A stretch of 64,000 nt of DNA, taken from Nocardiopsis sp. FR4. Its GTDB lineage: Bacteria; Actinomycetota; Actinomycetes; Streptosporangiales; Streptosporangiaceae. Below are positions 18,121-58,849 of the stretch, in pieces (position 1 is the first letter of the stretch; the number at the start of each line of letters is the position of its first letter). The stretch lies in contig NZ_VWVV01000026.1 of assembly GCF_009830945.1 (NCBI RefSeq), positions 1 through 64,000 on the forward strand, read 5' to 3'. The notes beneath the pieces were generated by a model that was given only the letters and a program-made list of their open reading frames with translations, was not told the DNA's origin and searched no databases. The position numbers and the translations under genes were made by a program.

Positions 18121-18328
18121 CTGTGCCTCCGGTGCTCGGGCCTGTGCCGGTGACGGGACCCTACGCACCGGGACGGACGTTCGCCCCGGGGTTGCGTACC
18201 CGCGTCGGAGACTGTGCGGGCATGCCGGGCAGAGCTGCCCACAGCCTGTGGACAACTTTGTGGAAAACGTGTGTCGGTGCTGTTCGGAGCGGGTGCGGGG
18301 GGCTACTCGGAAACCGTCCGCACCGCGG

Positions 18329-18583
18329 TCAGTGCCAGCGTGTGGACAGGATGACGGCCACGATGATGCCGCTGAACCCGATCAGCAGGTTCCAGTTCTG
18401 CCAGTCCTGCATGTAGGGGATCTGGGAACCCGCGATGTAGTAGACCGCGATCCAGAGAATGCCCAGGGCGAAGAAGCCCAGCATCGTCGGGACCAGCCAT
18501 CGCGGGCTGACCTTGGGCTTCTCCTTGGAAGGAGGCGGCGTGTAGACGGCCTTCTTCTTGCGATCGCTGCGGGACTTGGGCAC
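18329..18583 (-). CDS. crgA: Cell-division protein CrgA
   Basis: 84 residues from GTG 18583. It begins MPKSRSDRKKK and has two membrane helices (about 31-51 and 64-82) joined by a short loop, and ends LSTRWH, the CrgA signature. CrgA is an actinobacterial inner-membrane protein that binds FtsZ and septal penicillin-binding proteins and controls septation. Its position next to pknB is conserved in the phylum. Confidence 0.95.
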   Translation of the reverse strand: MPKSRSDRKKKAVYTPPPSKEKPKVSPRWLVPTMLGFFALGILWIAVYYIAGSQIPYMQDWQNWNLLIGFSGIIVAVILSTRWH

Positions 18584-51301: not shown

Positions 51302-52909
51302 GTGGCACACCAGGAACACAACGGGTCAGGCCCAGGCTCCGAGGCGGGCCCGGAGGCCGAGGTCTGGGACCGTCCCGACGGCGACCCGGAGGAGCCCGGG
51401 GCGGAGCCGGAGGCTCCCGCGCCCTCCCCGAAGGAGCAGTGGTTCGGCGGGTTCGAGGGCACGGCCCCGCCCCCGCCGCCCTACGCCCGGCTGCCCGAGG
51501 ACACGCCGTTCCCGGTTCCGGGGAAGACCGGTCCGGCCGAGGAGGAGGACACCGCGCGGGAGGCCCCGGAGGAGCCGCGGCCGGCCGAGGAGCCCGGGGC
51601 GGTCGCCCCCCGGGAGGAACCGGACGGGGACGAGCCGCGGGGAAGCACGGTCCGGCTCGTGCCCGACCCCGTCCGCAAGCGCCCGCAACGGCAGCGCCTC
51701 CAGCGCCCCGCGCGACCGGGCGGGGAACCGGACCCGCTGGGCCCCCGCCGCCTGCGCCGCGACCCCGACGTGCCCGAACCCGAGCAGCTGCCGCCGCTGG
51801 AGACCGACCGCGCCGAGGACCCCGGGGAGCCGGGCGTCCCGGAACCCGCGCCCGCTCCTCCGGCGCCCGCTCCTCCGGCGCCCCCGCGCGAGCGGCCCGA
51901 GCCGCCGCGCACCCTTACCGGGCCCCGGGCCGAACTCGTTCCCGTGCCACCGGTCCAGCCGCCCCCCGAGCCGGACCGGGAGACCTCCGACTCCCTCAAC
52001 GCCGCCACCCTCGTGCGCAACCGGCGCCAGGGGCCCAGCGGCGGCTGGCGCCGGGCCGTGCACACCGCCACGCTGGGCCTGGTCAACCCGGGGGAGTCGC
52101 CCAAGGTGCTGCGCCGACGCGAACTGGTGGCCCGCGCCTGCACGCCCGTGGCCACCGGCCACCACCGCGTGGCCGTGCTCAGCCTCAAGGGCGGGGTCGG
52201 CAAGACCACCACCACGGTCGCCCTGGGCGCCACCCTGGCCTCGCTGCGCGGTGACCGGGTGCTCGCCGTGGACGCCAACCCCGACCGGGGCACGCTCTCG
52301 GACAAGGTGCGCCTGGAGACGGCGGCGACCATCCGCGACCTGCTCAACGAGCGCCACCTGGTCTCCCGCTACGCCGACATCCGCGGGTTCACCTCCCAGG
52401 CCCCCAGCCGCCTGGAGATCCTGGCCTCCGACCGCGACCCGGCGGTCTCGGAGGCCTTCAGCGACGCCGACTACCGCGAGGTCGCCCGGATCGTCGAGCA
52501 CTTCTACTCCATCTGCATCACCGACTGCGGTACCGGGCTGCTGCACTCGGCCATGCGCGGGGTGCTGGGCCTGGCCGACCAGGTGGTCCTGGTCAGCTCG
52601 GCCTCCGTCGACGGCGCGCGCAGCGCCAGCGCCACCCTGGACTGGCTGGAGGCGCACGGCCACGGGGACCTCGTCCGCAGCGCCGTGGTGGTGCTGTCGA
52701 TGGTGCGTTCCGACAGCAAGAGCAGCGTGGACCTCAACCGGCTCCAGGAGCACTTCGCCGCGCGCTGCCGCGACGTCGTGCGGGTGCCCTGGGACGGGCA
52801 CCTGGAGGAGGGCGCGGAGGTGGAGCTGGACCAGCTCGCCCCCGCCACCCGGGACGCCTACCTCCACCTGGCCGCGACCGTCGGGGAGGCCTTCGCCCGG
52901 CAGCCGTGA
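51302..52909 (+). CDS. MinD/ParA-family ATPase with long proline-rich N-terminus
   Basis: 535 residues from GTG 51302, AGGAG 8 bases upstream. The first 230 residues are low-complexity, rich in Pro, Glu and Arg. The P-loop LKGGVGKTTTTVALG is at about 295 (deviant Walker A), and VLAVDANPDRGTL and ITDCGTG follow. Proteins with this architecture occur in type VII secretion loci (EspI-like) and in Streptomyces; no ESX gene is present here. A role in positioning or regulation is likely, but the cargo is unknown. Confidence 0.88.
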   Translation: MAHQEHNGSGPGSEAGPEAEVWDRPDGDPEEPGAEPEAPAPSPKEQWFGGFEGTAPPPPPYARLPEDTPFPVPGKTGPAEEEDTAREAPEEPRPAEEPGAVAPREEPDGDEPRGSTVRLVPDPVRKRPQRQRLQRPARPGGEPDPLGPRRLRRDPDVPEPEQLPPLETDRAEDPGEPGVPEPAPAPPAPAPPAPPRERPEPPRTLTGPRAELVPVPPVQPPPEPDRETSDSLNAATLVRNRRQGPSGGWRRAVHTATLGLVNPGESPKVLRRRELVARACTPVATGHHRVAVLSLKGGVGKTTTTVALGATLASLRGDRVLAVDANPDRGTLSDKVRLETAATIRDLLNERHLVSRYADIRGFTSQAPSRLEILASDRDPAVSEAFSDADYREVARIVEHFYSICITDCGTGLLHSAMRGVLGLADQVVLVSSASVDGARSASATLDWLEAHGHGDLVRSAVVVLSMVRSDSKSSVDLNRLQEHFAARCRDVVRVPWDGHLEEGAEVELDQLAPATRDAYLHLAATVGEAFARQP

Positions 52910-56571: not shown

Positions 56572-56648
56572 GTCCGTCGGACAGGGGCGTTTGTCGGCCT
56601 CGCTGGGTACGTTGACCGGTGGACCACAGCGACGAGGGAGGCCCCATC

Positions 56649-57803
56649 GTGAAACTTCGAGTGGACCGCGACGCGTTCGCCGACGCGGTCGCCTGGACGG
56701 CCCGGGCACTGCCCTCCCGGCCCGCCATCCCGGTGCTCGCGGGTATCCGCATGGAGCTCTCTCCGGACGGCTCCTCACTGCACCTGAGCGGTTTCGACTA
56801 CGAGGTCTCCACCCGCGCCTCGGTCGAGGTGCTCTCCGAGGAGGGCGGAGCCGCCCTCGTGCCCGGCCGCCTGCTGTCCGAGATCGTGCGCAACCTGCCG
56901 CCCGGCTCCGTGCACATCGACACCGACGGCCCCCGGCTGCGCGTCTCCGGAGGCGCGGCCCGCTTCACCCTCATCACCATGCCGCTGGAGGACTACCCCA
57001 CGCTGCCCGGCATGCCCGGCCGCATCGGCTCGGTCTCCTCCGACGCCTTCGCCGCCGCGGTGCGCCAGGTGACCCCGGCGGCCAGCCGGGACGACACCCT
57101 GCCCATGCTCACCGGCGCCTACCTCGACTTCCGCGGGGACACCCTGAGCGTGGTGGCCACCGACCGCTACCGCATCGCCGTGCGCGACCTGTGGTGGAAC
57201 CCCGACGGCCAGGGGCTGGACGTGGCCGCCCTGGTGCCCGCCCGCACGCTCAGCGACACCGTGCGGGGCCTGATCACCCGCTCCAACGTGGACATCGCCC
57301 TGTCCACGGTCCGCGGGGGCGACGGCGTCAGCCTGTCCCCGGGCGAGGGCATGATCGGCTTCGAGAACGGCGAGCGCCGCACCACCACCCGGCTGATCGA
57401 CAGCGAGTTCGTCAAGTACGCCGCCTGGTTCCCCAAGGAGTTCGCCGCGCGCGCCGAGGTGGCCGTGGCGCCCCTGGCGGAGGCGGTCAAGCGCGTGGCC
57501 CTGGTCGCCGACCGCAACACGCCGCTGCGTCTGGCCTTCGCCGGGGGCGAGGTCGTGCTGGAGGCGGGCTCGGGCGAGGACGCCCAGGCCGTCGAGGCGA
57601 TCGAGGTCGGCTACGAGGGCGACCCGATGCGGTTGGCCTTCCGCCCCGACTACCTCATGGACGGCCTGTCGGGCGTGGAGAGCGACACCGCGCACCTGAA
57701 CCTCACCGAGCCGACCAAACCCGCGGTGATCACCGACGTGCCGGTCAAGGAGGGCGAGAAGCCGTCCTTCCGCTATCTGGTTCAGCCTTTGCGGGTGTCC
57801 TGA
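56649..57803 (+). CDS. dnaN: DNA polymerase III beta subunit (sliding clamp), not beside dnaA
   Basis: 384 residues from GTG 56649; GAGGGAGG lies 8 bases before it. All three clamp domains are present (about 1-120, 125-245, 250-380): FADAVAWTARALPSRPAIPVL, RGDTLSVVATDRYRIAVRDL and RLAFRPDYLMDGL. The canonical dnaN of actinobacteria lies between dnaA and recF; here the neighbours are a thioesterase and DUF2786, so this is probably a second clamp gene. Four perfect DnaA boxes follow. It could also be the only copy in a rearranged locus; only the full genome can tell. Confidence 0.93.
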   Translation: MKLRVDRDAFADAVAWTARALPSRPAIPVLAGIRMELSPDGSSLHLSGFDYEVSTRASVEVLSEEGGAALVPGRLLSEIVRNLPPGSVHIDTDGPRLRVSGGAARFTLITMPLEDYPTLPGMPGRIGSVSSDAFAAAVRQVTPAASRDDTLPMLTGAYLDFRGDTLSVVATDRYRIAVRDLWWNPDGQGLDVAALVPARTLSDTVRGLITRSNVDIALSTVRGGDGVSLSPGEGMIGFENGERRTTTRLIDSEFVKYAAWFPKEFAARAEVAVAPLAEAVKRVALVADRNTPLRLAFAGGEVVLEAGSGEDAQAVEAIEVGYEGDPMRLAFRPDYLMDGLSGVESDTAHLNLTEPTKPAVITDVPVKEGEKPSFRYLVQPLRVS

Positions 57804-57841
57804 ACTGGGGTTTTGGTCCCTTTCTCTGCCGACCCGGCCCC

Positions 57842-58000
57842 TTATCCACAGAGTTATCCACAGGAAGGCGGCCTTCCTGTGGATAACCCGCGGTAACCGT
57901 GACCAACCGACACCCGAACCGCCCTCGCTGAACTCTCGCATTTCGGCTCTGACATGCGGAAACAGCAAAGAGGGCTGTTCTGTGCACAACCTGTGGATAA
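57842..58000. promoter_or_regulatory. Cluster of four perfect DnaA boxes including a 35-bp palindrome
   Basis: TTATCCACA at 57842-57850 and 57854-57862; TGTGGATAA at 57878-57886 and 57992-58000. The second and third lie in a perfect palindrome (arms 57853-57869 and 57871-57887). All are exact matches to the E. coli consensus, though high-GC actinomycetes usually use TTGTCCACA. A further near-match (TGTGCACAA) is at 57981-57989. It may be a DnaA-titration, regulatory or terminator site. Confidence 0.75.
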
Positions 58001-58027
58001 CTTCGGCCTCCGGTGGAGGAAAAGGTG

Positions 58028-58849
58028 CTAGTCGCTCTCCGCCAGCGCGGACGTGCCGCCGCCGCCCACAGGGGTGTCCAGTCCCAATTCCGCCTGGCGC
58101 CCCCGCCGGTAACCCGCCCGGTACCCCGCCGCGCTGTGCGTGCGCTCGGGACGGTGCTTGCGTAGCTGAGGGAACTGGCGGTGGAACTCCTCGTTCACCC
58201 GGTGCACGTCGTCCCGCAGCACCAGCTCGGCACCGCGCGCGGGCTCCTCGCCGCCCCCGACCGAGCCCTCCGGCGAGGCCATCTCCTGCAACCGGGCCCG
58301 GAACTCGCGGATGCGCTCGGCCACCGCCTGCCCGTAGGCGCGCACGAACGAGCGGTAGTAGCGCTTGCGCTCGGTCTCCAGCTCCGAACGCGTGTAGTTG
58401 CGCAGCTCCCGGATGTCGGACACGTGCGACGAGCTCATGAACTTCGCCGACGCCTCCATCTGCATCGAGATCGACGGCAGGAGCATCCGCAGCGCGTCCA
58501 GCGCGCTCACCGTGCCCACCAGGATCATGACGCGCTCGGTGTTCTCGGAGTTGTTGCCCCGTACCGCGGACTGGCAGCCGTAGGCGGCGGCGATGTCGGC
58601 CAGCGCCCGCACCCGTGCCTTGCCGTGTCCGCCCACTCCCGACACCGTGTAGTCCATACGGCTGATCGCGTCCGGAGCCTCGCCCCTCTCGGCGCGGGCC
58701 TCGGCCTCCGCGATCGCGTGGCGGGTCATCAGCTCGGCGGCCTTGGCGGTGAACGCCTGGCTCTCGGCATCAGTAACCGCGGGGTCCTCCGCCATGCGGA
58801 GGAGCCCGCGGACCCGCTCGACCATCTTCTGACGAGCAGATTCAGTCAT
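58028..58849 (-). CDS. DUF2786-domain protein
   Basis: 273 residues. The N-terminal DUF2786 domain (about 5-50: KMVERVRGLLRMAEDPAVTD...ESQAFTAKAAELM) is followed by a helical region with YTRSELETERKRYYRSFVRAYGQAVAERIREFRARL, probably a coiled coil. The C-terminus is Pro/Gly/basic. Function unknown; some members are found in phage-like settings. Its 3' end faces the DnaA-box cluster and dnaN. Confidence 0.86.
   Translation of the reverse strand: MTESARQKMVERVRGLLRMAEDPAVTDAESQAFTAKAAELMTRHAIAEAEARAERGEAPDAISRMDYTVSGVGGHGKARVRALADIAAAYGCQSAVRGNNSENTERVMILVGTVSALDALRMLLPSISMQMEASAKFMSSSHVSDIRELRNYTRSELETERKRYYRSFVRAYGQAVAERIREFRARLQEMASPEGSVGGGEEPARGAELVLRDDVHRVNEEFHRQFPQLRKHRPERTHSAAGYRAGYRRGRQAELGLDTPVGGGGTSALAESD

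Follow-up and report, generated by a model that had tools for sequence, protein, structure and literature searches.

Two independent features probably adjoin each other in the DNA analysed here, which comes from the soil bacterium Nocardiopsis sp. FR4: an origin-proximal DnaA-binding element of the titration type, and a damage-inducible second sliding clamp gene, denoted dnaN2, that lies outside the control of the DnaA boxes. The window, i.e., the whole 64,000-nt stretch of DNA that was analysed, contains four exact copies of the DnaA box TTATCCACA, all of them within 159 bp (mean of 0.00 copies in 100 shuffles). These four boxes, and the position of two of them in a 35-bp palindrome, had been pointed out in an earlier sequence-only reading of this DNA and were both confirmed. 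The features of the region, in window coordinates, are as follows.

56591-56613, + strand: putative PafBC / RecA-independent DNA-damage promoter, TTGTCGGCC-TCGCTGGG-TACGTT (TTGTCGGCC-N8-TACGTT)
56649-57803, + strand: dnaN2, DNA polymerase III beta subunit, 384 aa, GTG start (TIGR00663, three PFAM clamp domains)
57807-57820, + strand: terminator-like hairpin followed by TTTCTCT, from a pattern scan alone (2 found in the region vs 0.5 expected)
57842-57850, + strand: DnaA box 1, an exact TTATCCACA of which part of the genus has a degenerate version
57853-57887, no strand: 35-bp palindrome with 17-nt arms and a 1-nt centre, in which a spacer separates two extended DnaA boxes of 12 bp each (GTTATCCACAGG)
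57854-57862, + strand: DnaA box 2, an exact TTATCCACA forming the left half of the inverted pair, variable only at the third position in 28 aligned species
57878-57886, - strand: DnaA box 3, an exact TTATCCACA forming the right half of the inverted pair
57948-57963, + strand: accessory motif TCTGACATGCGGAAAC (genus consensus TTTGACATGCGAAAAC), with TGAC..G..AA near-invariant in the alignment
57981-57988, no strand given: TGTGCACA half-site, which precedes box 4 and is kept in most of the 28 species; the dnaB cluster and the clusters of Streptomyces-like genomes (see below) show this arrangement too
57992-58000, - strand: DnaA box 4, exact TTATCCACA; relatives carry TTGTCCACA or TTTTCCACA
58028-58849, - strand: gene for a DUF2786 protein (PF10979, 6.8e-13), convergent with dnaN2; the cluster stays by its 3' end in sister genera

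DnaA boxes in the genome

The exact box TTATCCACA occurs 23 times in the FR4 genome, compared with three times in the reversed control. Eleven copies are at C11:144148-147015, four at dnaN2, three before dnaB at C29:78050-78184, and two at C2:300528-300551, and the other three are singles. The group on contig C11 flanks the canonical dnaN (C11:142669-143796). It contains the double box with DnaA-trios, in which CTACTACTACT comes after TTATCCACATTATCCACA; together with the position beside the canonical dnaN, this double box identifies the group as oriC. The strain assembly consists of 73 contigs, and the distance between the cluster and oriC in FR4 was derived from relatives. The two divergent exact boxes on contig C2 (L034:4529-4552) lie within a 713-aa ORF that adjoins a GntR-type regulator and is possibly the replication gene of an integrative element.

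The FR4 genome has three dnaN-like genes. The claim that the dnaN of the window lies outside the dnaA locus holds solely because the window gene is a second dnaN and not a displaced one; oriC and the canonical dnaN are on another contig. A displaced single-copy dnaN was rejected because the canonical copy is present at oriC.

Conservation of the box cluster and its separability from dnaN2

Judged by its alignment and gene neighborhood, the group of four boxes is a free-standing cis-element that is conserved as a unit across Nocardiopsis. Its parts follow one another in the order inverted box pair, TGAC..GCGAAAAC motif, TGTGCACA half-site, and, at a distance of 113 bp, another box. Spacing is constant in the genus, with 24-25 bp for the inverted pair and the distal box 112-114 bp on. 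In the alignment of 28 species, the box positions were invariant except for the third base, which varied within A/G/T, and this restriction fits recognition by DnaA and not a fixed sequence. The motif between the boxes was also near-invariant, reading TGAC(A/G)(T/A)G.(G/A)(A/G)AAA. The inner spacer symmetry of the palindrome is specific to FR4, and the inner pairs were unconserved or random across the 28 species.

The cluster and dnaN2 part company outside Nocardiopsis. The distance between the boxes and dnaN2 is 625-930 bp in Marinactinospora, Streptomonospora PA3, Allosalinactinospora, N. potens, YIM 96095, and others, and the gene inserted between them in Marinactinospora encodes a PPOX-class F420-dependent oxidoreductase. 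The boxes of the sister genera remain near the 3' end of the DUF2786 gene, not with dnaN2, and direct repeats replace the Nocardiopsis arrangement, indicating that the precise layout is not required everywhere. Furthermore, more distant family members (L222, L223, L225, L227, L228) have dnaN2 without adjoining DUF2786 or boxes. That the boxes keep to DUF2786 and that distant dnaN2 genes do without them argues that the boxes belong to the place and not to the clamp gene.

A genome search for TTTGACNTGCGAAAAC, with up to two mismatches, returned 12 sites (C11:144171, C29:78085, C10:108875, C12:99956, and others) and none in the reversed control. The oriC region, the dnaB cluster, and the window cluster account for three of these sites, and box-free sites were found close to cspA, a whiB-type gene, and an ndh-like gene. 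Other genomes have fewer exact copies of the motif, and these are not always located at clusters. A non-box motif common to clusters and oriC provides a testable lead to a partner protein. In addition, an inverted repeat, GAACCGCCCC/GGGGCGGTTC, flanks the TGAC motif; by eye it seemed to covary in some species, and RNAalifold does not predict the structure. The cluster was rejected as an RNA element, as Rfam had no match there and covariation in RNAalifold was negligible.

DnaA-box clusters near oriC

Where a complete or near-complete genome of a relative carries dnaN2 and the canonical dnaN on a single contig, the two genes are 59-255 kb apart. The dnaB cluster (L035:5038-5185) is flanked by a MATE gene and by a dnaB that contains an intein, and in relatives it lies 33-39 kb from oriC on the opposite side from dnaN2. 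It has the same parts as the cluster at dnaN2 in a different order, namely an inverted pair, TTTGACCTGCGAAAAC, TGTGCACA or TTATGCACA, and a single box. The window itself holds a second pair of boxes.

18247-18267, - strand: second DnaA-box pair, TTTTCCACA-N3-TTGTCCACA, downstream of crgA
18335-18583, - strand: crgA, cell division protein (PF06781, 7e-30), adjoining the second box pair

The end of crgA was located in 29 genus genomes, and 21 of these keep this 12-bp-spaced pair. A model built from the sequence of the window element alone matched, in Streptomyces-like genomes, a cluster that has crgA on one side and a rhomboid gene on the other (best E 1e-9). The crgA-rhomboid cluster has the part order of the window element, lies 15-28 kb from dnaN, and is fuller than the crgA pair of the window. 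These genomes have more clusters in the dnaB-MATE and pheA-serS gaps (gene identities confirmed), and their dnaB cluster is syntenic with that of FR4. From their gene order, we take the genomes with the crgA-rhomboid cluster to be Streptomyces. Going by cosmid names, the crgA, dnaB, and pheA-serS clusters presumably correspond to H69, H24, and D78, the DnaA-box clusters of S. coelicolor reportedly described in J. Bacteriol. in 2006. Our literature search returned nothing direct on D78.

dnaN2, a second sliding clamp gene

On the evidence of its phylogeny and distribution, dnaN2 is an old, vertically inherited, family-wide paralog. The protein is full-length with all three clamp domains, scores 232 bits (9e-69) against the TIGR00663 equivalog (cut-off 137.65), and has mycobacterial clamps as its closest solved structures. 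It is 57% identical to the product of the canonical dnaN. Besides the canonical copy, a dnaN2 match of 76-92% identity was present in 40/40 genus genomes (as gene pieces in one draft), and matches were found in 117 of the 120 family genomes, most of which have two copies. In the maximum-likelihood tree, second copies from several distant genera group with dnaN2 in one clade (94/92), separate from the canonical dnaN clade (89/93), which indicates that the duplication is old. The between-species identity of dnaN2 is 85-89%, compared with 91-96% for dnaN1, so that dnaN2 evolves somewhat faster. A recent duplication of the oriC-dnaN segment was rejected, since the boxes are 3' of dnaN2 but 5' of dnaN1 at oriC and the tree is old.

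All 29 listed dnaN2 proteins of the Nocardiopsis clade with an intact end terminate in YLVQPLR. The Q of this sequence is M in canonical clamps and in the dnaN2 of sister genera. In E. coli beta, the corresponding Met belongs to the pocket that binds partner proteins. A literature search found nothing direct on a second dnaN in Nocardiopsis.

The third dnaN-like gene of FR4 is divergent (C27:73703-74851, L003; 33% identity), and similar extra copies occur in some relatives. Located 4 kb upstream of dnaN2 is a gene for a ParA/MinD-like ATPase whose N-terminal part is long and rich in proline (51302-52909).

A putative PafBC-type promoter of dnaN2

The sequence upstream of dnaN2 suggests that the gene probably encodes a damage-inducible second clamp. 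RecA-independent DNA-damage promoters of mycobacteria have the consensus tTGTCRgtg-8nt-TannnT (PMC5656591). The FR4 motif fits this consensus at all upper-case positions with identical spacing, has gcc for gtg at three lower-case positions, and matches 7/9 positions in the first half. Among 45 dnaN2 genes, 42 have TGTC-N12-TANNNT upstream, other spacers from 6 to 19 occur in at most one of the 45 each, and the background is 0.0017 per 110 bp. No such motif precedes the canonical dnaN of FR4.

A search of the genome with one mismatch was noisy (83 hits vs 26 in the reversed control), and hence perfect matches alone were used. The perfect motif, TGTCRGTG-N8-TANNNT, occurs three times genome-wide, before an SSB gene (L259:1501-2125), a DnaQ-like exonuclease gene (L260:1501-2388), and a VOC/glyoxalase-like ORF; the dnaN2 match is weaker. 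No dnaN target of a PafBC-type promoter was found in our literature search. It is quite possible, and we propose it tentatively, that the family of Nocardiopsis has an old, vertically inherited second clamp which is induced by damage through PafBC and, with a second SSB and the DnaQ-like exonuclease under the same motif, forms part of an alternative repair replisome, the Nocardiopsis clamp having in addition fixed a Met-to-Gln change in the C-terminal M-P-(V/L)-R. The dnaN2 clamp may act at damaged forks.

Possible roles of the box cluster

The sequence-only reading had considered four roles for this locus, i.e., DnaA titration, a secondary origin, DnaA control of the clamp gene, and termination of dnaN by the palindrome. 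The titrating locus is the best supported of these. It is favored by the conservation of the cluster as a unit across the genus, by boxes being numerous elsewhere only at oriC and dnaB, by the origin-proximal place, and by the layout common to the crgA cluster. A review (PMC5742627) describes chromosomal clusters of DnaA boxes, in B. subtilis and in S. coelicolor, as analogous to datA and as repressing untimely initiation. The cluster in FR4 would bind DnaA in trans, and duplication of its region would leave less free initiator at oriC soon after, as reported for the S. coelicolor clusters. Expression of dnaN2 would come from its own PafBC-type promoter on DNA damage, not via the boxes.

Rather than holding DnaA passively, the cluster could switch its state as datA or DARS do, with DnaA oligomers occupying the inverted pair together with the distal box and another protein on TGAC..GCGAAAAC in the place of IHF or Fis, leading to hydrolysis or exchange of the DnaA nucleotide. 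Strict spacing within the genus, a non-box motif that is kept between the boxes and recurs at oriC and the dnaB cluster, and one opposed box as in DARS cores (PMC5742627) speak for such a switch; however, the motif is also present at several box-free places and sister genera differ in arrangement, and we regard an active switch as rather unlikely. Sequence alone does not distinguish titration from active switching of the nucleotide. An anchor for chromosome organization or segregation, at which bound DnaA helps to position the origin domain with no role in initiation, would fit the presence of several clusters on both sides of oriC within about 250 kb, but nothing specific favors it and it seems quite improbable.

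Regulation or termination of dnaN2 by the boxes, whether through a DnaA roadblock or a palindromic terminator, was suggested by their location 39 bp past the dnaN2 stop in Nocardiopsis and by the hairpin that the 35-bp palindrome could form. We consider it improbable on several grounds. The palindrome was rejected as an intrinsic terminator because its stem shows no covariation (the sole variable box position is mispaired in 7/28 species), it has no T-run after it, and the dnaN2 stop is followed directly by a separate terminator-like hairpin, ahead of the boxes. Control of the clamp gene by DnaA is countered by the downstream position of the boxes, by the gene that intervenes between dnaN2 and the boxes in sister genera, and by the distant members whose dnaN2 lacks boxes. 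The idea of a secondary replication origin drew on the four boxes of high-affinity type in an intergenic region of 58% GC, compared with 71% for the window, and did not hold up. DnaA-trios are absent at 57700-58100 and present at the true oriC, AT content reaches at most 52% in any 50 bp so that there is no AT-rich unwinding element, GC skew goes from positive to negative across the window with no negative-to-positive switch, and no initiator gene lies beside the cluster. A secondary origin is therefore extremely improbable.

Comparison with known systems

The promoter motif of dnaN2 resembles mycobacterial PafBC promoters in its consensus and in its equal spacing. As a second full-length dnaN in an actinomycete, dnaN2 is comparable to griR and mypR, self-resistance dnaN genes that encode second sliding clamps (PMC10817943). 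Unlike these, it is family-wide, vertically inherited, near oriC, and preceded by a damage-type promoter, and no antibiotic cluster is beside it in the listed region of the window. Such a clamp, present throughout the family and preceded by a damage-type promoter, would matter for DNA-repair replication and for antibiotics that target the clamp, such as griselimycin.

The cores of E. coli DARS1 and DARS2 have three boxes, with box I opposed to boxes II and III at a fixed spacing; the window cluster has one opposed box among three and may thus resemble them in number and orientation. The accessory motif of FR4 is, as far as known, unrelated to IHF or Fis sites. Like E. coli datA, the cluster is a non-coding group of DnaA boxes some way from oriC and would depend on early duplication. 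It differs from datA in box number and spacing, and another conserved motif fills the gap where datA needs an IHF site.

The S. coelicolor clusters are closer in kind, being several per genome, intergenic, origin-proximal, and composed of non-oriC boxes of high affinity. The window element is likewise clustered far above chance, origin-proximal, and conserved in layout. Its location between dnaN2 and DUF2786 is, in contrast, not among the crgA-rhomboid, dnaB-MATE, and pheA-serS gaps. Judged by these features, the window cluster is likeliest to be a new member of the kind of DnaA-binding locus described in S. coelicolor, which suggests that origin-proximal DnaA-box clusters, experimentally known in Streptomyces, recur as a module in another actinobacterial family.
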